From Phlegmacium glaucopus (Eukaryota; Basidiomycota; Agaricomycetes; Agaricales; Cortinariaceae): 17,479 bases of DNA. This document shows positions 1,700-17,479 of this stretch, piece by piece. Each line of letters starts with the position of its first letter. Within the stretch, counting starts at the first letter, position 1. The position numbers and the translations under genes were made by a program. Under the pieces are notes generated by a model, which saw only the letters and a program-made list of their open reading frames with translations, had not been told where the DNA came from and did no database searches. The stretch is taken from assembly GCA_015039465.1 (NCBI GenBank), contig MU130104.1, positions 84,642-102,120 of the forward strand, given 5' to 3'.

Positions 1700-1800
1700 C
1701 ACCTTGGTACACTAACGCACCCTTAGTACTACTAATTCCTATCCCCCTCACGACTTGTTAGTATTTCTACCAAAGGTCCGTCGTTATCCGTGTCAACTGG

Positions 1801-2037
1801 TCGTTCTTCCTCTCCCTCAGCCAAAAGGCAAACTCAAATGCCGCTTCCTACACCGCAAGCACGACCATCACTCCCGTAACCTCCTCCTTTACTTCCTGAC
1901 AAAGCTGACACTTCGGAACCGTCACACCCGTCCTACCACAAAGTCTCGCCGCATACGCCTTCTCCACAACTAATTCTCCCCTCACCGGCCATGCCTCGAC
2001 CCGCTACTAACGCCTAACCGCTGCCAACTCTCCCAGA
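1801..2037. other. Mirror-written LINE (Tad-like) ORF2 C-terminus
   Basis: Read right to left from 2037 without complementing, the frame gives LDPLNRRQSAIIAQLRTGHS, then a CCHC-type finger CPHCQGFTVETVLHFLLQCP, then YQHERHILRRKLKRK and LSFLL at about 1801. The RRQ...LRTGH...LN..L.RI core followed by C-x2-C...H-x4-C is the conserved tail after reverse transcriptase/RNase H in fungal non-LTR retrotransposons of the Tad/I type; that family assignment is from memory. The frame opens directly after the adapter, so the upstream RT part is missing. About 79 codons are open. This is a fragment with no complete element. Confidence 0.85.
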
Positions 2038-2056
2038 TCTAGCCTTCTCGCAGCAC
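2038..2056. other. Illumina TruSeq adapter remnant, mirror-written
   Basis: Reversed without complementing, these 19 bases read CACGACGCTCTTCCGATCT, the 3' end of the TruSeq universal adapter. Their plain complement reads AGATCGGAAGAGCGTCGTG, the start of the matching read-through adapter. Nineteen consecutive matches cannot reasonably be chance. It joins repeat sequence to LINE sequence, so the underlying contig was built partly from chimeric, untrimmed reads before it was reversed. Confidence 0.96.
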
Positions 2057-2235
2057 GGTGTTTTATACCCAGATTACAAGTTGGTTAAGCGGCTCTGGAC
2101 TCTCATGAGTCTCCTGAGTCATCTCTACTGCTACCCTTGACTACTGGCCTCCCCATCATCTCGACCACTCGACCACTTACCCCCATGATCTTACTCAATC
2201 ACCTCAATCCCAAGTCTAACCATTGTCCTCATTTC
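2057..2235. repeat. Mirror-written copy of the 1-145 repeat
   Basis: Read right to left from 2230, the text runs ctcctgttaccaatctgaac, then cctaactccactaactc, cccccattcaccagctcacc, ctactacccctccggtcatc, gagtcctctgagtactctc, aggtctcggcgaattggttg, and ends aacattagacccatattttg. It follows the forward units at 1-145 and 142-357 step by step with scattered substitutions. Alignment to the normal reverse complement fails. Confidence 0.93.
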
Positions 2236-2286
2236 GTAACCTGGCCTTCAATGCTAACTTATGAAAGCCCCGGCCATTGATTGCAA

Positions 2287-3071
2287 ATGACATCGCCTTA
2301 CTCAGACACGAAGTACATAACTTCTTTTGTCTTTTTCACTCGAAATTCCGACCTTCATCAGACGATGATGACATTGAGAAGGACACAGTCGGAAGCTTCT
2401 GTTTCGTCTGGATTGTGGATGTCTGTCCGAGTAAGTTTTCTTGTTCGCTCATATTTCCATTCAAAACTAAGTAATGCATTTGTAGACTCCTCAACATTTA
2501 ACGTCCATCGAAGAAACCAATCCACCCAGTTCCTAGCTCTCCACCTCTCCTAACCGGGGCACCTACTCTCCGATTTATAAACTCTCACCTCTACCTCCAC
2601 TTCTGCTGCCATCGGCAGTTTTGAAGTGGGTGGGCGTAACCCAGCAGCCGTGAAAAGGGCTCATGTTCGTCCACTTTCCAAGTAATTACTCCAACTCCAT
2701 TATCGATGATGGGCAAGGTCTTCTGTAGAAGACTCGCTGTTTGAGAAAACAACTACCGTTCCTCCATGTCATCTGACTGTCTTTGATGATGATTATTCCC
2801 ATCCTCTGCAAGGTGGATCACTTCCTCCCAATCAATTCCGACCTCCATACATCCTCAGTATCAAGAGCATTCATAGAATGAAAGATTATGATACAATGAT
2901 CAATGTTAGTATTTCCACCCTTTTTTGTCTATCTCAAAATTTACAAAATATACATTACAGATGCTGGGAGGACACCTTCATTGTCATTCCATTGGATCTC
3001 TCATCGCATCGAGGCACTCTGCCATGCAGGGAACTCAGATGTACAAGGCCAGGACACCTATGAATCGCTAA
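2287..3071 (+). pseudogene. Unidentified multi-exon fungal gene, degenerate
   Basis: Three stretches look coding. The first begins near 2287 and contains TLRRTQSEASVSSGLWMSV, followed by a clean 55-nt intron (2431-2485, GTAAGT...TGTAG). A middle stretch around 2590-2680 contains SAAIGSFEVGGRNPAAVKRA. A last stretch from about 2727 contains HLTVFDDDYSHPLQGGSLPP and HRMKDYDTMIN, a 56-nt intron (2905-2960), then MLGGHLHCHSIGSLIASRHS, ending at TAA 3069-3071. An in-frame TAG near 2534 and frame changes between 2535 and 2727 mean it is either broken or has introns I failed to place. I do not recognise the family. Its orientation is normal, which bounds mirror block M1 on the right. Confidence 0.5.
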
Positions 3072-3246
3072 ATGTCATCCTATCAATTTGGTGGTGAATT
3101 GATGATCAAAGCTCAACAAAGTCTTTTGGAACGACATAGCTGGGAGGATTGACAAATATAGGAGTCATATTAATAAACTCATCGATCCTTATCTATATCC
3201 TCCACAATCATTGTTAATTCATACCACCTAATCGAACCTCGCATCC

Positions 3247-3531
3247 ATGCCTTCTGTCCATTGTCCCCGATGCGCAAAGAAGTTCAAGGATCAGACCAGT
3301 CTTCTTCAACATATGAACCAGCCATCTTCCTCCTGCTTAACGCACTTCGAAGAGCGTATCAACATCTTCAATGCTCTTCAATCGGGTCCAACAACATCTG
3401 AGAGTGATGATATGGGTCAAGAAAGTTTTGAACCACCCGATTTTATGGATCACAATGCAATACTCAGCGACATCCCAGGACACCCCAGGACACCCCAGGA
3501 CATCCTAGAGCTAGCACAGGTAAAACTTTGA
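3247..3531 (+). pseudogene. Plavaka-type transposase N-terminus, copy 1
   Basis: A 94-codon frame begins MPSVHCPRCAKKFKDQTSLL and has a C-x2-C...H...C zinc-finger-like start, followed by acidic sequence. This is how many Agaricomycete Plavaka (CACTA/EnSpm-like) transposase genes begin; the family is recognised from memory. It terminates after 94 residues instead of the 900 or more expected, so only the N-terminus remains. The end (IPGHPRTPQDILELAQ) is altered by a short tandem repeat. A second, partly deleted copy of the same region lies at 4486-4932. Confidence 0.7.
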
Positions 3532-3625
3532 GTAGTAACAAGCTTATCCAAGGACACCAGTCAGGACAAACCTAGGACAGCATAGATAGAACTTTTCAGC
3601 CGTCACCCATTTTCTCAGGACAAAC
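3476..3625 (+). repeat. Short (c)caggacacc repeat cluster
   Basis: The unit ccaggacacc repeats in tandem at about 3475-3505, and looser caggac copies continue to about 3625 ('caaggacacc', 'caggacaaacct', 'taggacagc', 'caggacaaacc'). The tandem part lies inside the truncated Plavaka frame and lengthens it. This may be a repeat expansion or transposase-site-like repetition. No function is visible. Confidence 0.7.
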
Positions 3626-4485
3626 CTTTAGTGTATCCTGGTGCATTGACCATCTGGATTAAATCACATCAGGAAGACCGCTGGGAGTCCCTATAGAATT
3701 TATGACATTTTGCTAGCAAAATCTTGAACCTGCTGCGATCCAGGAAAGTAGTTTTGCAGTTTATATCAATAAGCAGAGCTGCTATTAATATAATTTAAAC
3801 ATATTCAGGGTCCTAAAACAATTCTCTACCATCTTTAAAAAATTTCCTTTTTTGGAATTTATGTAATCTACCCTGACCCAAAATGCTGTAGATCATCAGT
3901 GACCAATGGTCTGTGCGCCATCCAAAAGATATATAAACCACCCACAATTTTGTTTTCTTATTTCCTACTTCCCCAAGTATTATACTAGTATATATATGTA
4001 TCACTATTTTATTATTATTTTATTACTAGTAATATATATGATCATTATAATAATTGAATATAATTTTATTACAAATAATATTATTCTGTTGTGTGAGAAC
4101 ACTCAATTATCTGGTTTAAATATGTTTTCTAACATAAAATCCAAAGCCTAGACTAAAGCTCACTCAAGATGCAATACTCAAGGATGCATCGAAGATTCAT
4201 CCGTCAAGATTGCCAACCCAGATTATACCGCAGAGAATATCGACTCACAAAAACTCGATGCCTAAAGACACACACAAGTTACCTCACGATTGCCCAAAGA
4301 CAGCAACTAAAATTTGACTGCAGTCACCACCAGGATAACTTGCTACTCCCACGATGTACCATATATTGATCCCTTCGAGCACTTATACCACCGACCGTTC
4401 TGCTATGGGGCTACTTCCCAGGACATTGTCATGCACAGCCCAGATTGGACGAAAACATTGCATGTACAATGATACAAATACTTGC
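3532..4485. other. AT-rich interval without a credible gene
   Basis: No conserved protein was seen on either strand or in mirror reading. Positions 3960-4090 are extremely A/T-rich with repeated 'attattattt', 'tatatat' and 'ataata' strings. The small frames are low-complexity. The interval separates the two Plavaka N-terminal copies, so it is either an insertion or the spacer of a duplication. Confidence 0.6.
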
Positions 4486-4928
4486 ATCCATGCGCAAAGC
4501 ACTTCGTAACAGCATAACAAAACATACAATCAATGTCCGTTCTTCAATCGCTTAGTCCTCAAAAAAACATGAGAGCGATGACATGGCTCAAAAAAATTTT
4601 GAGGACCACCCGATTTTATGGATACAATGGAAGATTCTCTGCGAACTTCCCCTCATTCCCCATTATCCCCTCCAACGGCCGCATCTCAAAACCCTGAAGA
4701 CGGGGTAAATCCATTCAGCATCAGGAAGCACCCTACATCTGGCAGTCTATTTGGATGTGGCGAGACGTTCATGGATCAATTTGACAAGGATAAATTTACA
4801 GAAACGAGGAAGGAGCACCTATACTATCCTTTTGCATCGGGGGACGAATGGGAGCTAGCCTCATTTCTCCTTCATTCTTGCCTAAGCATGGCTGTCATAG
4901 ACCGTTTTCTAAACCTCAAACTGGTGAG

Positions 4929-4932
<4 letters not shown>
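4486..4932 (+). pseudogene. Plavaka-type transposase N-terminus, copy 2
   Basis: The start (gcatccatgcgcaaag) matches copy 1 with an internal deletion, and about 4497-4640 repeats 3339-3465 with substitutions, including the shared 'accacccgattttatggat'. The open frame from 4618 ends with FMDQFDKDKFTETRKEHLYY, PFASGDEWELASFLLHSCLS and MAVIDRFLNLKLV, the strongly conserved block of Plavaka transposases just upstream of the zinc-cluster/DDE region. It then runs directly into the 48-A homopolymer, so everything downstream is missing in this orientation. The matching C-terminal half lies beyond the A run, written in mirror image. Confidence 0.8.

Positions 4933-4978
<46 letters not shown>
4931..4978 (+). 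repeat. 48-A homopolymer at a mirror junction
   Basis: An uninterrupted run of 48 A starts right after LNLKLVS of the forward Plavaka fragment. On its right, at 4979, the mirror-written Plavaka C-terminus begins at once. No polyadenylation context or element end is visible. Its exact placement on the forward/mirror boundary suggests a join or gap-fill artefact rather than a retroposed tail. Confidence 0.9.
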
Positions 4979-4979
<1 letters not shown>

Positions 4980-4980
4980 C

Positions 4981-6420
4981 CTTAAGACTTGTCATCGATT
5001 TCCTTAATATAAACCACTCTGCCGCTAGCCGGTGTAAAGGTTTTGTTCCTCAGTCCAGTTGTCTGCGAGAATGAACGACGTTACCTTCATACAGCGGATA
5101 CTCAAGCACTAATCGAGCGAAAGGGGCAAACTCTTATATATTACTACTAAAGCCGAGACCTATTCCAGGAGCTCGACATCAACTTGGACTTTATAAGAAC
5201 AACTAGACCCCATGTTACAGTTTGGTTGCACGTATACATTCCTTTGTTAGGAGGGTTTTCTCCGCAAAGTACAGACCTTATTACGCCTTCTGCTCTGTGT
5301 TAAGGTGCTGAACTACTGGAACTCTTAAACCCCCAATCGTGCCATAAGTTAATAACGTTCTACTTGACATAGGTCTGGAAATTCCGGTGATACACCGGTA
5401 AGTGTTCGACCTAGCTCCAATCGTTACTGACCTAGTACCGCGGGATTAAGGGTAAGCGGTCTACCTCCCGTCCGTAAATGTCGGAGTCTGCCCTCCAAGT
5501 ACACCTATCACTATACGAAATAAGACGTTTGCTTTAAAGAAGGTATAGACGTTTACACATTTACCATCACCAGGAGCCCTACGTCTCGTCGCCGGTGGTT
5601 CTCAAGACTATATAGACGGTAGACATTACTATGCAACGTACATCAGCCTGTCACGAAGTGCATTTAGACCTTATAATTTGTTTCAACGGTGTAGTAGTTA
5701 CTCGTATGTAAATATACTACCTAGAGCCAACTCTACCTTCCGACGAACTCTGCTCGTTTTCCATACCCGACCGTAACCATCTTGAGCCGACCCACCTGGT
5801 AAGGGCTCCAACCGTCGAACCCGTTTTATTAGTCCTACTCTCGCGTTCCTGAAAACACTATGGCCTAAATATACCAATTGTTCTAGTCGACAGCAGAGTT
5901 ACTAACTCAGCAGCGACCTTTATGATAACCTCAGTAACAACAGAAGCAGACAACTCCTTTTGGAACGTGCTTTCAGCTGGGGTCGTAGTGCTTAACGACA
6001 TTTTTCCAACTTAGCAACTGTAAAGAGATGTGCCAGTTCTACAGCTGTCTAAACCCTAAGTATCAAAACTAACAACCTCTCCAGACGCCCTAGAAATTAA
6101 TGTAGTTACACTCGCGCAAGACAGGGCAGACGGCTGGTAACATCACGCTATGGCAAACGCACTTATGAACCTTACTGTGAGACGTCTTTAAGGTCAAAAC
6201 CCTACATGGTTAATAGTTATCGTACTGTAAAAGGGGCGGCTCGGGGGCGTCGTTACTAACTGAGAAACACTAGTACTTTAAGGGATTCACGATGTAGTTA
6301 GAACCACGTTTAAACGAGTAGTTAAAGGTAACTAACTCGGTCCATCGCCTTCAGGTAATCTCGAGCTTATCGTTGCTCCTTCAAACCACCTTGTCGTAGA
6401 CGTTAGTGCCGTTGTTACGT
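4981..6420. other. Mirror block M2: Plavaka transposase C-terminal half
   Basis: Read right to left from 6420 without complementing, a 311-codon open frame gives conserved Plavaka blocks: CIVAVIADAVPPNFLVAIRA, LMDFRYLAQSMEIDEQICTK, then AIDNWYIPKLEFLQSV, ALQWSADGTERAHIDVIKDP and NNQNYESQICRHLDRV. A frameshift near 5490 leads to PSGEWELGRHD and EWPHSGLKGL. A second shift near 5310 leads to WEDCFLTYARWFDIVPQINK, PLQQVRASVDLTPCFGN and finally NVADRRLTKYNSFSYCSEF beside the A run. The order matches the family. The roughly 400-residue middle expected between this and the forward fragment at 4618-4932 is absent. Two frameshifts suggest a decayed element even before the artefact. On the printed strands no frame of 60 codons exists across 4979-6660. 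Confidence 0.96.
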
Positions 6421-6849
6421 TGAATAAGTACTTTAACAAGGAACTGTATTTAGCTCTTTCTTAACATTTCATTAGATAGTGATATCTGGCTGTTTGTTCA
6501 CTCCCATATTACAATGCAGTTTGAATGATAATACTTTAATTCTTGATTGCTCTACTTCGAATTTCTGAAGTGACAAGTAAAACAATAACTAGTAGGTAAG
6601 AGTCTACCTCAGTAGTTCATTGTTGTGGTAATGGTGACAACGGAAAAGGGAGATTAAATTATGTTCATATTATTTAATATTTTAAACAAGCAAGGGCTTC
6701 ATAATGCTTAATAGTAGCAATGTATTTCCTATACAGTGCTGTACAGCGTGATATAGTGACAAAAGCGTTCTGGACAGTGCTAGTGTGTGTGACATGAATA
6801 CTATGGACACTATGACGGACTATAAGTTTGGTGACGTGACTATGACAAA
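6421..6849. other. Boundary interval between mirror block M2 and the hAT element
   Basis: Upstream Plavaka homology in mirror reading stops at about 6420, and the normally oriented hAT gene ends at 6850. The mirror boundary therefore lies between. A candidate hAT left end, TAGTGAT, is at 6477-6483 and mirrors ATCACTA at 10397-10403. Beyond those 7 bp the two ends resemble each other only weakly. No gene is visible in either orientation. Confidence 0.5.
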
Positions 6850-6893
6850 CTATGGGGAACTGTAATTTTGGTGACATGACTGTGACACACTGT
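6818..6893 (+). repeat. Tandem duplication, about 40 bp
   Basis: The segment 6818-6853 (gactataagtttggtgacg...) and the segment 6858-6893 (aactgtaattttggtgaca...) are near-identical with a 40-bp period. The inner edge overlaps the last codons and stop of the hAT gene, so the annotated C-terminal tail of that protein is repeat-derived. Confidence 0.75.
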
Positions 6894-9800
6894 AGGATTT
6901 TCCTGAATTTGCTGATGCATCCTTTACATACCCCATTAAACTCCATACTCCAAGGCACAAGAGGGCACGCGTTGACTGGACAGATAACTGACTATGTACA
7001 TCTGAGAGCAGGAGACGGCCCTGGCTGAACATTCATTCAACATCGACTGACGTGGCTACAATATCTTTGTAAGTAAGTCTGTTGAATAGAGAAAAGAAGT
7101 ACATACCTGGGATTGACAAATAATCCATTGCCATCCGATAAAGGCGAGGGTAAATGTGTCTACGCTCACGCCACCAGAGCAGACCGTCCTTGACATGGAG
7201 TTCACATTTGGTACCCAGGTACTGTTCCAACTCGTCACGCAGCTCCATAGCCTCAGGTTCTCTGAGCGCAGGCAAATCGTCAAAGATGTTTTTTGACGAT
7301 GAGGCCTTCAACGGACTTGGGGTCTTCTGTAGAGTTTGTTAGTGAGGTTCAATATAGAGAAATTGATTAACATACCATGCTAGGATCACCTGAGGCCCAA
7401 ATATCATCGCCTGAGTACTTATAAGACCGCTCAAACTCAGTATGAACAAGGTCCTCTGACCGTTCAACCCAAGCTTCCTCCCACCCAGCTTTTTTGAAGT
7501 AGTTGAGCTTGTGTTGAGGGTGTAGAACTGAGGTACAATGTTAGTGAGAGGTATGCACTGAAAGGTTGAATTAATCATACCCATGGCGATCCAAAAGACT
7601 TCGGAATGGTCAGTTTTGTGGTAATACCTGTTAAGGGTTGCTTTCCCAATAGCAAGCGCAGCTTTGATTGCCACGGGATAAATGGGACTGAGTGCTGCAG
7701 TCACGAGGTGTTCGTCAATATGGTCCATAGCAGGGATCACAGTGGTGATGTTAGGTGTGCCACGCGAGAAGAAGAGCGTCGCGTCCTTGAAAATCTATAT
7801 GAACATGACTGAGTTGTAAGTGAAACAGTGAGTAATTAATGATAACTCACTTTGAGGACATCACAGAGCTTTATTGCGATTTTCCAATCCTCCTCGGACA
7901 GCTCATACTGCCTGAGCTTCATCTTCTGATTCCCAGTGATTAAATCGAGGGCTTCCCAATGCTCAACTGCGAAATCAAGCATGTTGTATGTTGAGTTCCA
8001 TCTTGTCCTGACATTGCATGGCATCATCCGCTGGCAGAGGTTGAGGTCCTCGAGGATAGCAAACCATTGAGGTAGGAGGAGGGTGGTTGAGTCCTTGATT
8101 GCGAAGGCCGTTTTGCGCAGCTAAGGACATTAATTAAATAATCATGTATTAGCTAACTATTAACTTACCTTTGTCAACAGTATGCGCACAGGTTCAACAC
8201 TCTCATCCAACTCCTCTAACTCTGCTTCATTCATGAACGTACGTTCATTGATCCACCCCTCAACATTGTCATCCTCACCACCTGCGCCGTCCTCCCCATC
8301 CCTTCTAGCTACCTCTGCTTCCTCAAATTCAATGTTGCCTGCAAGCGATAAGAGCTCGTTGCTCACCTCATCCAAGACCCCATCCTCTTTGGACTTTGGT
8401 AAGTCAAATTGTCGAATAACACTTTTACTACAAGGTTGAGTACATGTGTAAAGCACTGCATCTGATTCGCAGGACCTGGGAAGTTCTCAAGGAGGTCAGC
8501 AAGCTCGCTGATCATCGTGTCATTGTTCGATGCATTGTCACAGGTGATTGAAAGGATCTGCGCACTAGTGAGTCGACAATCCATTGACTGAGAATAGCTA
8601 CTGACCTTGTCACTAATTCCGAAATCATCTAGAATTTTTGCAAACGCCGCAGCAAGGTTAAGCCCGGAATGCGAACACGTGACCTCAACAATGTCAAGAA
8701 GCATCGAAATAGGGACACCATCCTTCTCAAAATGGACCATCACAGCTACATATGCCTTGTGATTAGGTGAAGTCCATGCATCCGTTGCAAAACTCAAGGC
8801 TCCTTCATACTCCTAGTATCATCCAAGGTAAGTCTCCAGTTATTGCATAGCTGCCAAATCAATTCATAAATTTACCTGCAGCATCTTTGCAATACACTTA
8901 TGAACATTCACAAAGACTGTTTTTACATCACACAAAACCGTTTCCGGGGAAGGTATGTGATATCCAGGCCGTCCTGTTTTCATAAGAGACTGAAATCCGC
9001 GGTCCTTCACAATCTTGAAGGGCCGTTTGCTCTCAGAAACCCAACGCACAATTTCGGCTCTAGGTTGCAGCATCAGATTCAGATTCACGTTTGAAGAAGA
9101 GAAAGAAAAGGATCAAGATTAATGTGCGTACCTAGCCTCACTTGTTGTATGCTGAGTATGTCGATAGGTGACCTTGCTCTTACTGATATGTTGAAATTCG
9201 GTCAAGATGGACCCATCCCATAACTTCGTCTTTGCCAGCACATCACAAGCAGCATTAAGATCCTGCGTCGCGGTTGCTGCCTCCACTGCTTCAGTACCCC
9301 AGCAAATCCTCGCATGCCGCAGGAGATTTCCAGTCGAGTTTGCATCACCCTTATCAAGAAACCAACAAATATAATGGCTATTTCGTCCTTTGCACCTGCC
9401 AGCTGCACACTCGAAGACATGACAATGTCGACCATCCTTGTACTGAATCTGTGGAGTTTTCTTAAAAAATACATAAACTGGTGAGGTCCACTTCCTCGCC
9501 ATGCGTTCTAAAAGCATAAACTAAATATTCATCATTGATAATGATAGCTACACACCTAATTCAGCCTCGTCATCCTCTTCAGGATGTTCAAGAACTTCAA
9601 CAATGTCTTCGTCACTGTCAATATCCATAGTTGCTGGAGTTGGCCCAGGTGGATCATGACTATCATTGTCACTCCCATCAGACATTTCAAGGATGTTTTG
9701 TGGGTTGCGCGGTCGCTCCGAGTGGATTAGGTTGTCCTCATCAGGGACTTCTTCAATTTCAACAGACGGCTTCTTTTTTGCTGCAGCCAGTCTATCAGGT

Positions 9801-10000
9801 ACTGGTTTCGAAGCAGTTTTTTTCTGAGGTCCTGGTTTGGCCGGTATGTTCTTCTTTTTTCTGGGTTCTTCTGGTACTGACTTCTTCTTTTTGAGAGCAG
9901 GGATAATGACGGGTTCACCATTGTCATTCAGCAGAGCTTGGCGTTTACGAGAGGTACAAGTCTCTTCAGTTGGTTGGGGGTTGGGAGGCTCAACCGGCAT
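6850..10000 (-). pseudogene. hAT transposase, nine exons, inactivated
   Basis: I place exons at 10000-9556, 9507-9132, 9059-8876, 8812-8169, 8120-7851, 7794-7581, 7527-7376, 7326-7107 and 7055-6850, joined by GT-AG introns of 49-74 nt. Adding one lost base makes the sum 2712 nt, or 904 codons. The start is MPVEPP at 10000, followed by a Lys/Pro and acidic tail, a BED-like C-x4-C...H...C finger (HCHVFECAAGRCKGRNSHYI), the RNase-H-like motifs FATDAWTSPN and ITCDNASNNDTM, RTRWNSTYNML, and the C-terminal dimerisation region ending ATSVDVE. Two lesions exist. A base is missing in an A-run at 8423-8426, between HVLNLVVK and SVIRQFDLPK. TGA at 7033-7035 replaces the conserved Arg just after the presumed catalytic Glu, and the downstream MFSQGRLLLSDVHSQLSVQS is still intact. 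The element is recently dead or carries sequencing errors. Confidence 0.9.
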
Positions 10001-10154
10001 TGCAGGATTTTTGGATTTTTTTTTTTGGGTTGTAATGATATTATATACTATACTGTACAGTTTATGCCATGTCGACCGTATTTGTATGTTAATGCTTGAG
10101 GTGCTAGGCAGTGGCCTCATATACCTCCGTTTCCTTAAATAGATTGTGGCTGGC

Positions 10155-10403
10155 CGCCGCATCAATAACCCGTGCCACAACTAGTGGGGTACGGGTTTTG
10201 GTAGGGTGTGGGATGTCCAACCCGTACCCCAACCCCATAAAAACCTGTGGACTAACCCCGGGGTCTGTCATACCCGTGACAATCCCTAGAACTGGACTTC
10301 AGGTTCAGTTCAACAGTTTCTCTGAACTTTGGACCGAACTTTTGGTCCGTTTCGAGAAGTTCAGGTTCAAACCACGGTTCAGAACCGAACTGCGGCATCA
10401 CTA
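10155..10403 (+). repeat. hAT right subterminal region with inverted repeats
   Basis: A perfect 13-bp inverted repeat, tggggtacgggtt (10185-10197) and aacccgtacccca (10219-10231), flanks a 21-nt loop. Further out, 10285-10390 is filled with short direct and inverted ggttcag/gaactt/ccgaac units. Such GC-rich 'acgggt' and 'ggttcaga' clusters are common just inside fungal hAT ends and would be the transposase binding region. That role is inferred from position. Confidence 0.6.
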
Positions 10404-10955
10404 ACTGGGATGGGAAAAACAAGTTTTATATCAATGTATGTGTTAGTTGTACTCGAGATACCAGGGTGATCTATCATTGTGCCCATCAGCAGCTGCTAGA
10501 TTTCGGACTTATTCATACTGCACGTGCCTCCAGAAGATCATGTGAAGGGCACTGAGTTCATATTCCCACGGCACGAAAGCTGAGGTACGGTAAGACAGGC
10601 GCGATCAAAAGCAGACCATAGATGGAACGATTTGTCTTCCATCATTATATAGGCTGCCTTCGGGAGACTACATTTTCAGGGAGTCACCAACAGTACAACC
10701 AAAGTCGCAGAATTGTATGAGAATTTCATATTCAAATTGACATTCATCCTGTATGTATGTAATAATTGCAGAAGATTGCGCAAGTGCAATCTTCTAATAT
10801 TCACACGACATTCACTTTCTGACAGAGATCATTAATGTGTTCGTGGCAGTTGAGTAAACGTTGAGTGGTAGTCTGGATTCTCGCACTTTTCCTTATCAGT
10901 GGACTGGAAGGCTATAAGTATAGCTAACCCAGTGAACGCCTGGCAATTACACACA
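10404..10955 (+). promoter_or_regulatory. Intergenic region upstream of the P450
   Basis: No conserved protein was seen. There is a TATA-like 'attatatagg' at about 10644, roughly 310 bp before the chosen start, and a nearer 'ctataagtatag' at about 10911. A short imperfect repeat 'gcaagtgcaatcttct / gcagaagattgcgcaag' near 10768-10795 can form a stem. Core promoter elements in basidiomycetes are poorly conserved, so this is only the likely P450 promoter region. Confidence 0.35.
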
Positions 10956-13063
10956 ATGGGCAGCCTTCTTTTTCTCGACATCACATTCGCTGTATTTACA
11001 GTCTTATTGCTTAAGAAGATTTTCACTAAACGCTCGACACCTTTGCCACCGGGCCCACCAAAACTACCTCTTCTCGATAATTTGCTGGACTTTCCTACCG
11101 GTAAAGCATGGATCACCTTCTCAGACTGGGGTAAAAAATGGGGTATGTGTCTCACAAGTTGTCACGGTGCCTCACTGAGGACTTGCGATCATGAACCTCA
11201 ACTAGGTGACATCGTATCCATTTCGGCACTCGGTCAGCATTTGGTGATCCTGAACACTGCAAAAACGGCAGTAGAGATGCTGGACAAGAAGAGTGCAATT
11301 TACTCTGACAGACCCGTCTCGCAAATGGGAGAACTAGCATGCTGGAAAAACTCACTTGGTCTTCTCCCATACGGAGAGCGATTTCGCAATTATCGCAAGT
11401 ATCTCCACCAGCTCATGGGCAACGTTCCCTCGGCATCGTTGTTTTATCCAGTTGAAGAACTAGAAACACGCAAATTATTAAAACGGGTCGCGGAAAACCC
11501 AGACGATTTAGCAGCCCATATACGCAAGTGAGTCCGAATCATAACCTCCCTATTTAGGTGTTCATATACCTCTGTCTGTGTCCGGCTATAATAGCACTGC
11601 TGGTGCAATAATTCTCCATATATCTTACGGGTACGAGATCAAAGAACGGGACGACCCTTTCGTCGCCCTCGCTGAGGAGGCGGGGTCGCAAATTTCGATT
11701 GCATCTGTACCGGGTTCCTTGTCGACATTTTCCCTCCTTGTGTGTTGTCTTGTACAAGTAATTCATCAGAATTACGATGCTGAAGCTTCTAAATTTCTAC
11801 AGTGAGGCATGTACCAGCTTGGTTTCCTGGAGCAGGCTTCAAGCGGACAGCAGCTCGTTGGGCTGAGACGGTTACAAACATGGTCGAAGCCCCATACCAG
11901 TTTGTCAAACAACAAATGGTGAGCTCCGTGGTGTATACTCGCTTGCTTCACTGATACGAAGCATTCTTCCCACCTCGCAGGCATTAGGAACTGCGAAACC
12001 ATCCTTTACTTCACGCCTGCTCGAAGAGCTTCATATCACTGCTGAACAAGAACACGAGATTAAATGGTCTGCACAATCACTGTATGCAGGTGGCGCGGAT
12101 ACAGCAAGTTCTCTTTCTTACCTTAACCCAATTAAGATTCCACTAACATAGGATGAATAGACTGTATCTACCATCCATGCTTTCTTTTCAGCCATGACCG
12201 TTTATCCTGATGTTGCTCGAAAGGCCCAGGCAGAGCTTGACACTGTGGTTGGAACCGACAGATTACCAAAGTTTTCCGACAGAGAGAACCTGCCATATAC
12301 AAACGCTGTTGCACTTGAAATAATGCGATGGCATTCTGCCGTGCCCACTGGTAAATTCTCCCTCTCTAACTCGACGCGCCGCTTACCAAGACGGGACTCC
12401 AGCCCTACCCCATCGTGTGATGGAAGATGATATCCATGACGGCTACTTGATACCAAAAGGTGCCTTCATAATCCCCAACATCTGGTAAATTGCGTTAAAA
12501 CAAGGAATGACTTGAAAACATTTGAAACTAAAAAAATCCACAGGTTCATGATGCACGATCCAAAAGTCTACCCGGACCCCATGAGTTTCAATCCCGAAAG
12601 ATTTCTGGGACCAAACATGGAACAAGACCCTCGCGAGATTTGTTTCGGGTTCGGAAGAAGGTATGTGGATCTATGACTTTTTGTTCCCTTGTTCTTACTG
12701 AATTGCGATTCGTAGAATTTGTCCCGGTGAGATTATCTCTAACTATCTTCGTTGTGCCACGATCGTAATTGATGTTATGTCTCCAAGGTCAAATCTTGGC
12801 TGATTCTTCTATTTTCATCGCGTGTGCGATGATTCTGTCTGTTTTTGACATCGCCAAATATTCCACCAAAGACGGAATCATCATTGAACCGGTCATTGGA
12901 CAGACAATGGGGATCGTTAGGTGAGATTTACCAACATCAAAAGCATTGATGGCGATCTTTAAAAATTATACCTTTTTGTAGCCATCCTGAGCCTTTCAAA
13001 TGTTCCGTTTTACCTCGTTCACAAAAGGCGCTGGATCTCATTAGGTCTGACTTTGAATCATAA
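10956..13063 (+). CDS. Cytochrome P450 monooxygenase, eleven exons
   Basis: Exons: 10956-11142, 11206-11527, 11595-11739, 11803-11918, 11981-12103, 12161-12350, 12391-12484, 12544-12660, 12716-12726, 12788-12920 and 12982-13063. The start [20 protein letters not shown] gives a membrane anchor followed by the Pro-rich hinge [13 protein letters not shown]. An in-frame ATG at 10899 would precede the anchor with 19 polar residues and is less likely. Motifs follow in order: I-helix AGGADT (exon 5), ExxR as EIMR in [11 protein letters not shown] (exon 6), FNPERFLGP, and haem loop FGFGRRICPG (exons 8-10). The product is an ER-bound haem-thiolate oxygenase of the large fungal secondary-metabolism/xenobiotic type; the substrate is unknown. 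Intron 5 is GC-AG (GCAAGT donor, 12104-12160). One base appears missing near 11710: VPG runs into FLVDIFPPL only after a frame change, and adding one base gives 507 codons, the usual length. It is a functional gene with a sequence error or a very young pseudogene. Confidence 0.93.
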
Positions 13064-13120
13064 AACCTGCGTCCATGAAACGTCGTTGGCGTTTTGTATA
13101 GTATTTCAAGTTTGACTGTA

Positions 13121-13507
13121 CTTTTTCCAAGGGGTAAGCAAAAATTGATTAAGGACATTATGTTGTTTTTGGGCTTAGAAATGGCTGGGAGATCGAAAAA
13201 TTCAACTCCGAAGTTTTTCCCATGGGTCCTTGTTGACTTACCATATAAGGAAATTTTGGGGGAGGGGAGGGGTCCAAAAGGCTGGTTTTTTTTTTGAAAA
13301 GTGTGCAGAACGACAAAAGAGGTCCAGAAAATTTGAAAAAATTGGGGGTCAAAATTTTCTCCTCCAAAGTACAAAAGTGGCCATAACTTGGCAACCAGAA
13401 ACTTTGACGACAAAGCGACTTCAGATTTCAATTTCCCAGTCCATTTAGCACCTAAAAACAACATCATGTCTTTTTCTCCAGTGCTGCGTACCCCTTGACT
13501 TTTTCCC
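13121..13507. repeat. Imperfect foldback (MITE-like) element
   Basis: The left arm (13121-13215: ctttttccaaggggtaagca ... gacattatgttgtttttggg) pairs with the right arm read as reverse complement (13507-13405: gggaaaaagtcaaggggtac ... gacatgatgttgtttttagg). Similarity continues inward through '(g)ggag...aaaattttg' to a loop near 13300 that holds a run of T. The arms are about 70-75% alike by eye. A 190-codon minus-strand frame over this area exists only because both arms lack stops and is not a real gene. It may be a non-autonomous transposon inserted just downstream of the P450 stop. Confidence 0.7.
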
Positions 13508-13510
13508 ATT

Positions 13511-14110
13511 TCGCCGTTTACTTACTTCGCGCACTCCCTGAATTTGATATATGGAAGTTCCCAGCTTGCCTCTGCAAAAACATGACAAAGTAAAACTCAT
13601 GACATTCAACAAATCATTTATACGAGGAACTATAGAAAATCTTCAATACGAGCTAAATTTCATAGGTGCTTCCGAATATCGAATCGGAAGTGGGTACTTC
13701 CAAAGTTTATGGCCCGCGTTAAACGTCATTTTTGATATCTCGGGTTTCAGCTGGAATTTGCATTGTTTGTGATAAAATCCTAACGAAAAGCAGACCAAAA
13801 GTCTCAAACGGAGATCAGAACCCCACCACAACTTGGAAGGGAACAATGAATAATCACTTTATCGGAATGGCCTTTAAGCTTTAATAATTTAATAATAATA
13901 ACCATCCGAAATGCAACGTTGACCTACATACTACATAACAGGAGCTGAGCGCTGAGGTGTCGAGGGACTATAGTACGACAAATTTCTTTCAAAGTGTATG
14001 TAAGAATGGCGTCGGGGAATCTGTCAAGATACCATCAATTGCTGCTTTATTATACGATTAATCGGATCTCTGGACGTTCCAGGGAGTTCAAGTCTGTGGC
14101 CTGACTGGTA
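13511..14110. other. Intergenic or repeat-derived, no gene recognised
   Basis: Open frames of about 70 codons on both strands do not resemble known proteins. The palindrome cttccgaatatcgaatcggaag (13668-13689) and the 'gatatctcgggtttcagctgg' text look repeat-derived, and may belong with the foldback element. AT-rich sequence follows at about 13880-13905. Confidence 0.45.
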
Positions 14111-14114
14111 AGTA

Positions 14115-14740
14115 CTAAGAAGGTTGTGCATTAGCATCTTCAAGGGAGGATAAAAATAAAAGCCCTTTATGCAGAATTCGAACATTTACCGGCAAGCTGT
14201 CACACCAATTTGCGTAACTCTTCCGCATGACATCGCCGTCTAGGTACAAAACCAGGTCTTGGGGTAGCACTACTGACTGATGGCTGTTCACGACTGACTT
14301 TCTGATATATATCGACATCAAAACTTCTGTACAGCCCGAAGGACCCTTCTTTACCATATAGTTGAACCCCCATTTCCAAAGGCAAAGCAGTCCGACTCGC
14401 GAAGTTCCTGATGTCCACCTCAGATGCGCCTGTATGCTCAGGTATACTAATGTGAGTCCAGGATAAACACGTTGAATTTGCTTTTATTAGCTGAAAAAAG
14501 TGAAATTTTACTAGCAATACAGATATCTCGGGTACACAGTTTCGCTGGACGTCTTATACATCCATCCATCTAATGTCGAATCACTCTTCCATTCAGGTCC
14601 TGGTGTACGGATAGCCTTGTATCTTCAACCTATTCTTTCTGGTACGTGTTATTCAACCATGGAGACTGGGCCACAATTACTAACCGATTATCGATGATCT
14701 CAACAGTCTTCCTCGTCCGTTTTTCTCCACCAGATGCGCC
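14115..14740 (-). pseudogene. Unidentified minus-strand gene, truncated at mirror junction
   Basis: Coding-like segments from right to left: ASGGEKRTRKTVEIIDN at about 14740-14690, a probable intron (GTTAGT...AATAG, about 14687-14634), PEWKSDSTLDGWMYKTSSET near 14600, SIPEHTGASEVDIRNFASRT near 14440, and VVLPQDLVLYLDGDVMRKSY near 14260, ending at the stop at 14115. The pieces are in different frames with no obvious introns between some of them, so either several short introns or frameshifts exist. I do not recognise the family. Its 5' part would extend right of about 14740, where the sequence turns mirror-written, so the gene is cut by the artefact. Confidence 0.45.
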
Positions 14741-14769
14741 AGGTGCCTATTGGTCGATGACTTCATTCC

Positions 14770-15170
14770 GTATGCCTGCAAGGTTCAAACCTCCACCACT
14801 TTATCGGCGCGACTCTTTACGTAAATAGTGGTAACGTGCTCGTGTTGTTCCAACACAACGAAGATGACCCCTCAACTTCAACTTCTGCCTCTTGTAAAAT
14901 CTGTAAAACTTCCTACAATGACCTATAAGCCTCTATAGCTCTTTCCTTGATTTAATACACGAACTACTTCGTCCCAACTTCCCTGTACCTCTTCAACTAA
15001 AGCTACTCAAATAGCTCCATTCGGGAAAAAAACCGTAAAGTCAATACAAACAATTGCAACCCAAAAGGATCTAAACACCATTAGAGTTTCTTCAACGCGA
15101 GCGCGGATGGGGCTATTTTCCATTCTGATCCGCTTCGTAGGGACAACTCTTCTCACCGCCTCCACAAACT
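14770..15170. other. Mirror-written EF-hand-like protein, C-terminal part
   Basis: The plain complement read left to right gives KFGGGEIAALRNAFITIARA, QQGCVASTGELKLKTENILD, ILKDVTGYSEISRKELNYVL and DEAGLKGHGEVDFDEFIE. An intron with GTAAGC...TTCCTAG (15018-15071, 54 nt) follows, then ICGNLKEVALAPTP, and the frame ends RRSIPVEKSGGGV with TGA at 15168-15170. The helix-loop-helix around DEAG...DFDEFIE resembles an EF-hand with imperfect calcium ligands, as in actin-bundling or calmodulin-like proteins. The exact family is not certain. The beginning is lost at the block edge. It is transcribed left to right in the mirror reading, towards the membrane/C2 gene. Confidence 0.8.
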
Positions 15171-15771
15171 TAAACATACACCTTTAACCGTCAAAGATGT
15201 GGATGTATAAATACAACATTAGAAGCATTAGCTATCTACTGTCACAGTACAACATATAAGCGACGACCGTCGACCCCATTCTATATATGTCGTTAAATTT
15301 ACCATATTGAGTTTAAAATTCAATAGGTATGTAGACTGACCTTTGTTTTCTTTCCATACTATTTTCATACACGTTACCACCCGAAAGTCTTCATCATGAC
15401 CTTAGGATGATCTTATCAACTAGATGGAATCGTTGAACTTGAACCATACGGAAAGTTCAAATATGTTGGTATAACACTGGAACAGGTTATAGGTCCGAAA
15501 GTGTCCGGCGGTGTTCAGTTTTTTCGTTCATTCAACCTTTACGATGGATGTAATAAAGTGATATGAACTTTTTATGGAGCGAAAGACTTTATCTCCGTAC
15601 CGAAAAGATTATAAAATGAAAGTCGTAAAATTGCGAACATGTTCATCTTTTTTCAATTCCCTGAGATTTTTATTGTCAAGAGGGTACTATGACAATTGGT
15701 TGCTATGATGTCAGTGCGTGATGTTAATAGTACTAGTCGAACACTACTGGACTCACCCGTTATGTTATCTG
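15171..15771. other. Mirror-written intergenic region between convergent genes
   Basis: This lies between the stop codons of the two mirror-written genes. It is AT-rich with no conserved frame in normal or mirror reading. It presumably contains both 3' untranslated regions. No terminator signal could be assigned. Confidence 0.5.
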
Positions 15772-17479
15772 AATGAGATCGACCATGTGAGCCCAACAGC
15801 AATGGAAGAAGACTGGGGTCCAGAACAATGCCGTGAACTTGTTTCGGTGGGAGAAAAAATGTACCCAGAGAACACCTGGTATCTCTACACCTCCATGTAT
15901 ACCGTTGCAACCACCCTGACTTCACAATCATCTATTGCTCTATGATTGTCTGTACAGTCTATGACATTATGGGGGTGCTTGTTCTCCCTATAGTAGCTAT
16001 AGATGTACTCTCAACCCACTACTGCTCCATAACTCTAGAACGAGGAATCCTCCACCCTCCTCCCTCTTCCCTTCTTATCAGCATTTCGGTTACTTCCGTC
16101 CGGTTAAGGCCAGCTATGTGAACGCTAGCTTCTGTGCCTATTGGTGTCATCTGTTTAGAGGCTATAGGTGCAGTTTCGAGAGAGAGGTTAGGCCCAGTCA
16201 CCACAGGAGGACAAGCTTTCACCACATGTAAAGCGCAAGTAGTTAGCATTGTTGGCGCTTACTTCTTCCGCGAGCCTAACGGCACTGGAGAAGAAGTCCC
16301 TACAAGACTTCACTCATACCACCTTCGGGTAGGTTAAGCGTCACGCCTGCAACTTCTGGAAACCGTGACGCTTACCTCTAGGCGTCAAATGCTGTAAACG
16401 ACCGCCCAGGACTACTTGCAGCTCGGTCTTACCTGAGCATGTTTCTTTTCTCACCACTCTAGCAATTTTGGTTTCCATCCTAGATATAAAGTGCAATCGC
16501 AAGTCATATATTATCCCGAACCTCTTCCGACGGTATGAACTGGTTTAGGGGTAACGGACAAATCTAAGGCGCCATGTAACAAAGATTGTTCAAGCTCAAG
16601 TCAGTAATATTACCTGGTCCGTCGATCGATATTCTAACTACTCTAGGCGAATAGTGTAAGACATCCTTATGTATTTGCGTGTTTCCACTGATCTTAGCAA
16701 AAGGGTATACAAGCCATGGTTAAAGGACAGGGTCTTCCGCGGGTTAGCTATTAAACTGACTAGTTCGAAGCGTCGTTGACTACCTTTCAGCCGGCTCCCG
16801 CCTCGTCTGCTAAGGATTCGTGAAAGCCATTTTTGTATGGCCTTTAGTCTGCTTCCTTCTTGTTTTGAGTGCAAAGTCAAAAAAGGGGGCATCACTTTAA
16901 CTGAGACCATTGGTAGAGCGCTACCTGAAGCAAGGACCCTCCATCGAATCCGAATTCTTCTAAGACTGAAAAGCATCGTCTTTTCTCACGGTTTTTTCGT
17001 TCCATATAGCAACATCTAGGACGCTAACAGGACATCTGCTTTTCGTTGCACTTATACGGGGTATATCAGTTCAACTCATAGGAGGGTGATGGGTTACGAC
17101 CCTCTGATCGAGGTTTCTTCTAATTTGCCCAACGACGTAACGTAGGTCCTCCGGGTCTCGGTTTCCACCCACGTCATTGGGTATGCATCTACCGCTTACG
17201 TATGCATTTTCGACTCGCGCAGGTTAAACGCTCCTAATTCTTTCCTCTCACATGACTTGCGCATCGAAAGAACCGACTACTGCGCCAGTATTAGAGCCGT
17301 TCAGGTTTCCGACTGCGTTCCTGTCCATTCTTTTCTTGATCCCGAGTACGGAACTCGATACATGCTAAGTGCAATCTAATATCTTTGGTGAACGGTATTT
17401 GCTGTTGTTACCGTAGGTCATTACTCTAGAGGACGGCTTATCGTCAATGCTTCGGGCTATACTGGTTCGGCTATCGCCA
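15772..17479. other. Mirror-written multi-pass membrane protein with C-terminal C2 domain
   Basis: Reading leftward from 17479 without complementing gives about 496 codons after removing four introns: 17394-17344 (GC-AG, GCAAGT donor), 16871-16815 (GTGAGT), 16681-16628 (GTGCGT) and 16537-16483 (GTATGG). Hydrophobic segments include TAIGLVISGFVTAI, YALVLFLPVLASAFGLAEIM, SAFTYAFAIYVWVTAPTFGS and a pair around GKTILVTFLAAWSIIM and QILPLVLTISPLFSLYESIL. The soluble tail has C2-like sequence: KLRISIRSAKGL, SSFAVVTIDEREMYTTFEQE, DPDWRESFDVDIGDLSTVVI and RVFDRKCIDRNWPAFIGFT. The frame stops at TAA 15774-15772. The last exon alone is open for about 236 codons. The N-terminus lies outside the window. 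The family looks like an uncharacterised basidiomycete membrane protein. Ca2+/lipid binding is inferred from the C2 similarity only. Confidence 0.9.

Follow-up and report, generated by a model that had tools for sequence, protein, structure and literature searches.

Uncomplemented reversal of sequence blocks beside gaps in a Phlegmacium glaucopus assembly, most likely an assembly artefact

How can fungal genes and repeats come to lie in a genome sequence so that they are legible only from right to left, letter by letter, without taking the complement? The window discussed here, a stretch of 17,479 nucleotides from contig C51 of Phlegmacium glaucopus, raises this question in three blocks, and the observation of these mirror blocks is confirmed here as real, with corrected limits. 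Both printed strands were searched, and reverse-complement reading of the blocks did not lead to normal sequence on either of them. Because neither printed strand reads normally, blocks 2 and 3 differ from a biological inversion or transposition. The mirror blocks are most likely an artefact of assembly and not a property of living DNA.

The second block (4979-6418, assigned to neither strand) contains the 3' part of a transposon with a DUF6830 domain, reversed in place. A mirror open reading frame (ORF) over 5488-6426 (313 amino acids) matches DUF6830 with an E-value of 9.9e-36, and a second one, over 5271-5867, holds the rest of the domain (E = 5.6e-12), whereas the six printed frames of 4979-6418 gave no Pfam family at E ≤ 1. 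DNA matches of 1.4 kb at 97% also support the mirror reading. The 5' part of the transposon (2057-4930, + strand) is printed normally, with printed matches to contigs C143, C164, and C7, and near 3259-3318 it has a C2H2-like motif, whose zf-C2H2 match (E = 0.002) falls short of the Pfam cut-off. Between this part and block 2 lies a run of 48 A on the + strand (4931-4978), probably a stand-in for an assembly gap; at this position C143 carries about 1.2 kb more (2351-3589 of locus L026, between the flanking matches). The 3' end of the transposon (6419-6917, + strand) is again of normal polarity and matches C88 (99.6%), C73 (98.8%), and C164 (97.6%). In normal copies of the transposon, 6419-6917 directly follows mirror position 4979: a single strand of C143 runs through window positions 6418 to 4979 and then 6419 onward, and a single strand of C88 runs through 6305 to 4979 and then 6419 onward.

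Other copies of the same transposon are themselves affected. The C73 copy is mirrored over 5248-6218, yet normal over 5247-4979, and the mirrored spans of the C200 and C129 copies are different again. The mirror ORF of the C200 copy (locus L027) matches DUF6830 at E = 8.4e-53, and this copy also gave an edge match to the Plavaka transposase domain PF18759 (E = 0.076, below the cut-off). Three of the four mirror ORFs tested from other loci (those of L010, L012, and L015) have no Pfam match, and mirror blocks at these three loci are unproven.

In the third block (about 14766-17479, to the scaffold end, neither strand), the mirror reading gives the remaining exons of a membrane/C2 protein gene, in true order from 17479 downward. 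A mirror ORF over 15775-16482 matches the C2 domain (E = 2.6e-6); the six printed frames of 14755-17479 match no Pfam family at E ≤ 1. The mirrored block aligns with a P. glaucopus hypothetical protein, P0013, at 99.6% over 236 amino acids, with one residue different, and P0013 also matches the preceding exon (24 amino acids, 95.8%). The first exons of the gene are printed with normal polarity at 14593-14765 on the + strand. Two homologues, P0001 (61% identity) and P0003 (48%), follow the normal exon to its end at 14765 and then continue in the mirrored block from 17479; in P0001, residues 31-46 and 46-66 match 14593-14765, and the part from residue 67 on aligns with the mirrored letters from 17479. 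Because the gene spanning 14765 continues once the block is turned, the block has been reversed in place. An EF-hand-like exon lies on the other mirror strand at about 14763-15068 (E = 0.01, below the Pfam cut-off).

The first block (1-2056, neither strand) likewise gives the true sequence in reversed, uncomplemented letters, and its left edge abuts a run of 11263 N. Its mirror polarity is read from repeat copies only: mirrored 574-247 and 290-1 match C143 at 98%, mirrored 2038-1794 matches C186 at 98%, and mirrored 1789-1632 matches a normal repeat copy on C51 itself at 93%; 729-1631 is placed in the block without a direct alignment. The repeat fragments at 1632-2037 (mirror reading, neither strand) include a reverse-transcriptase-like zinc motif, the zf-RVT match of which is weak (E = 0.015) and misses the Pfam cut-off. 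On C143 the mirrored 574-247 and 290-1 adjoin printed 2056-3457, and 2057-2235, of normal polarity, is contiguous there with 2236-3457. The last 19 letters of the block (2038-2056, neither strand), read in mirror, are an exact match to CACGACGCTCTTCCGATCT, which we take to be the end of the Illumina TruSeq adapter. In true order the adapter letters sit at the gap-side end of the block, and an exact search of the genome for them returned no normal copy and one mirror copy, that at 2038-2056. An Illumina adapter in this block misfits an extension from PacBio reads alone.

These results bear on the limits given in the earlier note. There, block 1 was placed at 1700-2235; its mirror polarity is confirmed, and the limits were wrong, the copies on C143, C186, and C51 giving 1-2056. 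For block 2, put at 4979-6420, the polarity holds, since DUF6830 is found solely in the mirror reading, and the right limit is now 6418. Block 3 (14750-17479) stands as well, on the C2 protein in its mirror reading, with a start now at about 14766. When the blocks were reversed, as the note had suggested, and searched for protein domains, blocks 2 and 3 matched Pfam in the mirror reading, and the printed frames matched nothing at E ≤ 1.

Genes of ordinary polarity lie between the blocks. Exons of a hAT-type transposase occupy 7033-9520 on the - strand, with a near copy on C158 (96%); 7033-7338 matches Dimer_Tnp_hAT (E = 2.9e-8), and 8363-8812 and 9119-9520 match no Pfam family. A cytochrome P450 gene follows at 10956-13060 on the + strand; its hand-spliced protein matches p450 at E = 1.5e-65 and the P. 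glaucopus protein P0023 at 97% over 83% of the protein, two exon pieces being 100% identical. A k-mer polarity score, compared with the minimum of 216 reference windows, fell below that minimum over all of 5001-6600, the region of block 2. In block 1 it did so at 1-400 only, in block 3 it was mixed, and a normal stretch (10001-10400) also scored below the minimum; for these reasons the score is taken as supporting evidence only.

The phenomenon is not confined to this contig. A 34-letter repeat word, searched across the genome with up to three mismatches, has 153 normal and 12 mirror matches (12/165), and a 32-letter word, searched in the same way, has 216 and 19 (19/235). The mirror copies of the two words occupy 31 places on 24 contigs, a spread that rules out an accident of a single contig and bears out the earlier guess that similar blocks exist elsewhere. 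Wherever the edge of a mirror block could be observed, in seven blocks out of seven (the three in the window and those on C73, C200, C164, and C129), it abuts a run of N, a stretch of poly-A, or a scaffold end, or, in the case of C129, lies within 50 bases of one. Further mirror stretches of 4 kb each, which hold 11 of the 31 mirror places, include a gap in nine of ten cases. Tiles from other contigs had a gap in 0 of 18, a weak control, these tiles coming from long contigs and being unmatched for repeats; on C51, five of the eight other 10-kb stretches examined contain gaps. Exact runs of 25 A number 157 on the + strand and 1 on the - strand, an imbalance that marks them as gap placeholders. 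Mirror and normal copies were not told apart by their distance to these runs (2 kb or less in 2 of 19 versus 7 of 189 places listed), in a comparison that covered 19 mirror places out of 31, 189 normal ones, and 100 of the 158 runs. It should be mentioned that not every gap flank is affected, because at least one poly-A gap, near position 4000 of locus L013, lies between flanks that both score normally for k-mers.

Could the mirror matches be chance similarity? Nothing speaks for it beyond block 1, where the k-mer score is weak, and the idea is refuted by DUF6830 at 1e-35, the C2 protein at 99.6%, and 1.4-kb DNA matches at 97%; its probability is negligible. Nearly as improbable is that copies of reversed polarity really exist in the chromosome, as the product of some unknown process. 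The scatter of the mirrored repeat words over 24 contigs could be claimed for such copies. However, no polymerase or recombination event is known to yield a parallel copy, and real reversed DNA is ruled out by a gene that is cut at the block 3 junction and continuous when the block is turned, by the position of the blocks at gaps and placeholders, and by an adapter whose letters are mirrored too.

A more serious objection, which we still consider unlikely, is that the blocks arose later, when the assembly was copied or reformatted, and that the public record may lack them. Block 3's C2 protein has an entry among the public proteins, under a contig of 5493 bases, so that a copy of normal polarity is implied for the public assembly; searched with this protein, the analysed genome returned nothing, an empty result obtained without a positive control. 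C51 has 102120 bases, whereas the best public protein matches of its two P450 genes sit on a contig of 123839 bases, and therefore our copy of C51 may differ from the public record. The nine contigs C251-C259 measure 10760 to 81581 bases, and the analysed copy may therefore lack short contigs. On the contrary, C6, C77, and C125 equal public P. glaucopus contigs in base count, so these scaffolds were not rebuilt, and the position of the blocks at assembly gaps, with spans that differ between copies, points to a gap-building step.

We therefore return to an assembly fault: very probably, the blocks are ordinary fungal sequence reversed in place by a gap-patching step that mishandled the orientation of additions at contig edges. 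The software error proposed in the earlier note gains support from the genome-wide mirror copies, the edges at gaps, and one transposon mirrored over differing spans. The form given to it, a minus-strand piece reversed and left uncomplemented, does not hold, since such a piece would appear complemented, with its order correct. What the copies on C143 and C88 and the gene across 14765 show is a same-strand print of the true sequence with its letters in reverse, and such a print implies either a minus-strand piece complemented but unreversed or a plus-strand piece reversed needlessly. The patching step would add sequence at contig edges beside gaps; the added pieces would be flank extensions that run into gaps or past scaffold ends. 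The code may complement minus-strand pieces without reversing them, or reverse pieces that need no change. A PBJelly-like step is a candidate that would fit, because PBJelly lengthens flanks and takes runs from 25 N upward as gaps, as described in the available part of PMC3504050. According to the available part of PMC7550596, the hybrid JGI genomes of a mycorrhizal survey are ALLPATHS-LG assemblies patched with PBJelly; that part does not state that P. glaucopus is a hybrid assembly. Among the titles and abstract openings listed, no published report of a mirror-block fault was found, and PMC8081667 and PMC6191289 describe other matters in the parts available.

What has been found is not biology but a type of assembly error likely to escape standard checks. 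Mirrored text would pass them because length and base composition are kept, blocks 2 and 3 show no six-frame Pfam match, and the only exact adapter match in this genome is mirrored. The artefact likely hides real genes and, with 12 of 165 and 19 of 235 word copies mirrored, would affect the counting of repeats, the limits of transposons, and the gene sets beside gaps. A backward search with each abundant repeat word is a quick test for any assembly. We speculate, tentatively, that one patching fault put mirror blocks at the gap edges of a whole series of public hybrid genomes. If so, these blocks would be invisible to six-frame searches, repeat maskers, and adapter screens, and once turned they would yield hidden genes and transposon ends from many species.

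How do the blocks compare with known systems? The flank extension and overfilled gaps of PBJelly (PMC3504050) resemble them in the new sequence at contig edges in gaps and in the 25-base gap definition; the available part of that paper describes no polarity fault, and here the placeholders are A, not N, and block 1 has an Illumina adapter. The coding content of block 2 and its flanks may be that of a Plavaka-like fungal DNA transposon with DUF6830; this would be the biological cargo alone and leaves the mirror printing unexplained. An ordinary inversion misassembly or scaffold orientation error also leaves a piece wrongly oriented beside gaps, but such errors keep base pairing, so that the other strand reads normally, whereas blocks 2 and 3 have no Pfam match on either strand. 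Uncomplemented reversed sequences also serve as null models; those are made deliberately and from whole sequences, whereas the blocks here are patches edged by gaps.

The genome comprises 60.5 Mb in 259 contigs, and the window (17479 bases) spans 84642-102120, the end of contig C51 (102120 bases). We translated the window both as printed in the assembly and with its letters in reverse order, uncomplemented ("turned" or "mirror"), and scored ORFs and frames of both readings against Pfam; the whole genome was searched with the printed window and with turned stretches, and the copies were then aligned base by base. When block 2 (window positions 4979-6418), the 3' part of a DUF6830 transposon, is turned, it has a 313-aa ORF with DUF6830 (E 9.9e-36). 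Block 3 (about 14766-17479), the rest of a membrane/C2 gene, when turned yields a C2 domain (E 2.6e-6) and aligns over 236 aa, at 99.6%, with P0013, a Phlegmacium glaucopus protein named as hypothetical. As printed, neither block gives any Pfam family at E<=1 in six frames. Turned block 1 (1-2056) matches repeats on C186 (98%), on C51 itself (93%), and also on C143 and C7, with 729-1631 lacking direct alignment. The k-mer polarity score agrees clearly in block 2 only: block 1 scores weakly, block 3 gives a mixed result, and one normal stretch is negative as well. The mirror reading is real, and the earlier note's claim of reversal without complementing is borne out by the DUF6830 and C2 proteins, which appear only on turning.

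On one strand, C143 runs from window 6418 down to 4979 and then from 6419 upward, and C88 shows the same order starting from 6305; C143 also has window 2057 directly after position 1. The alignments of homologues P0001 and P0003 follow the normal exon to its end at 14765 and carry on in the mirror reading, which begins at 17479. Together these alignments show each printed block to be reversed in place: its letters are those of the true sequence, taken backwards without a change of strand. Block 1 had been placed at about 1700-2235; its mirror polarity stands and its limits do not, as 2057-2235 is normal and 1-1699 also belongs to the block. The minisatellite units of 2057-2230 and 1-360 occur both normally and mirrored across a span of about 2 kb, a probable reason for the first reading's confusion over which part was reversed.

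Read from 2056 down to 2038, turned block 1 gives CACGACGCTCTTCCGATCT, which we take to be the terminal part of the Illumina TruSeq adapter. Once the block is put in true order, these adapter-like letters form its gap-side tip. An exact genome search found 0 normal copies and only this mirror copy, which a screen for normal-orientation adapters would miss. The adapter suggests that block 1 derived from Illumina sequence, a poor fit to an extension built solely from PacBio reads.

The reversal fault is repeated across the assembly, as the earlier note had supposed. Genome-wide, at <=3 mismatches, one repeat word of 34 letters matches 153 times normally and 12 times in mirror form, and another of 32 letters 216 times normally and 19 times in mirror form. 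These 31 mirror places, including one inside the window, are spread over 24 contigs and both strands. The transposon of block 2 also has copies with mirrored spans on C73, C200, and C129 (the turned C200 ORF carries DUF6830, E 8.4e-53). An inherited mirrored element might be proposed for such copies, and is disfavoured because their mirrored spans differ from the window's. A possible fourth mirror block on C51 is 70326-72641 (5685-8000 of fetched stretch L010), just right of a 26-A run, where the polarity score is mostly negative; its longest mirror ORF has no Pfam match.

Mirror blocks adjoin gaps. Block 1 begins where an N run stops, block 2 begins at 48 consecutive A (where C143 has about 1.2 kb of sequence), and block 3 ends with the scaffold. 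The mirror blocks on C73 and C200 lie beside N runs, that on C164 beside 27 A, and the C129 match <=50 bases from a run of A. Exact 25-A runs number 157 on the + strand versus 1 on the - strand, and are therefore placeholders written in the scaffold direction. Ten 4-kb stretches were taken, together covering 11 of the 31 mirror places; a gap is present in nine, and the remaining one has a mirror segment that reaches the end of the stretch. None of 18 4-kb tiles from nine other contigs, not repeat-matched, has a gap, whereas C51 itself has gaps in five of eight other 10-kb stretches examined. Among the places and runs listed, mirror and normal copies were not separated by their distance to runs of exactly 25 A (2/19 mirror versus 7/189 normal within 2 kb), and at least one poly-A run has normal polarity scores on both sides. 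On C138, one repeat word is mirrored on both sides of a single 26-A gap, on opposite strands (L059, 1797 and 2198), as would result if each flank had been extended and printed in reverse.

The window's P450 gene (10956-13060) belongs to a family expanded in this genome, with relatives on C125 (several), C77, C159, C105, C6, and C51. It matches P0023 of P. glaucopus at 97% over 83% of the spliced query, two exon pieces at 100%. The two P450 genes identified on C51 have P0023 and P0025 as their best matches. Both are listed with a 123839-base contig, against 102120 bases for C51, and the C2 protein of block 3 with a 5493-base contig; these listings count against full identity of C51 with the public record. 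A genome search with the C2 protein, run without a positive control, gave no match.

The finding of mirror blocks is correct and is important to anyone working with this assembly, but the blocks are not a biological feature. They are best explained by pieces added at contig edges with their orientation mishandled, which would mean complementing without reversal or needless reversal. Such a fault was unreported in the open-licence papers searched. The added pieces may be flank extensions, and PBJelly-type patching is a candidate for the program responsible. Cortinarius glaucopus is an older name of P. glaucopus. A mycorrhizal genome survey that mentions C. glaucopus gives ALLPATHS-LG with PBJelly patching for hybrid assemblies as a class (PMC7550596), and PBJelly counts runs from 25 N as gaps, into which it extends the flanks (PMC3504050).
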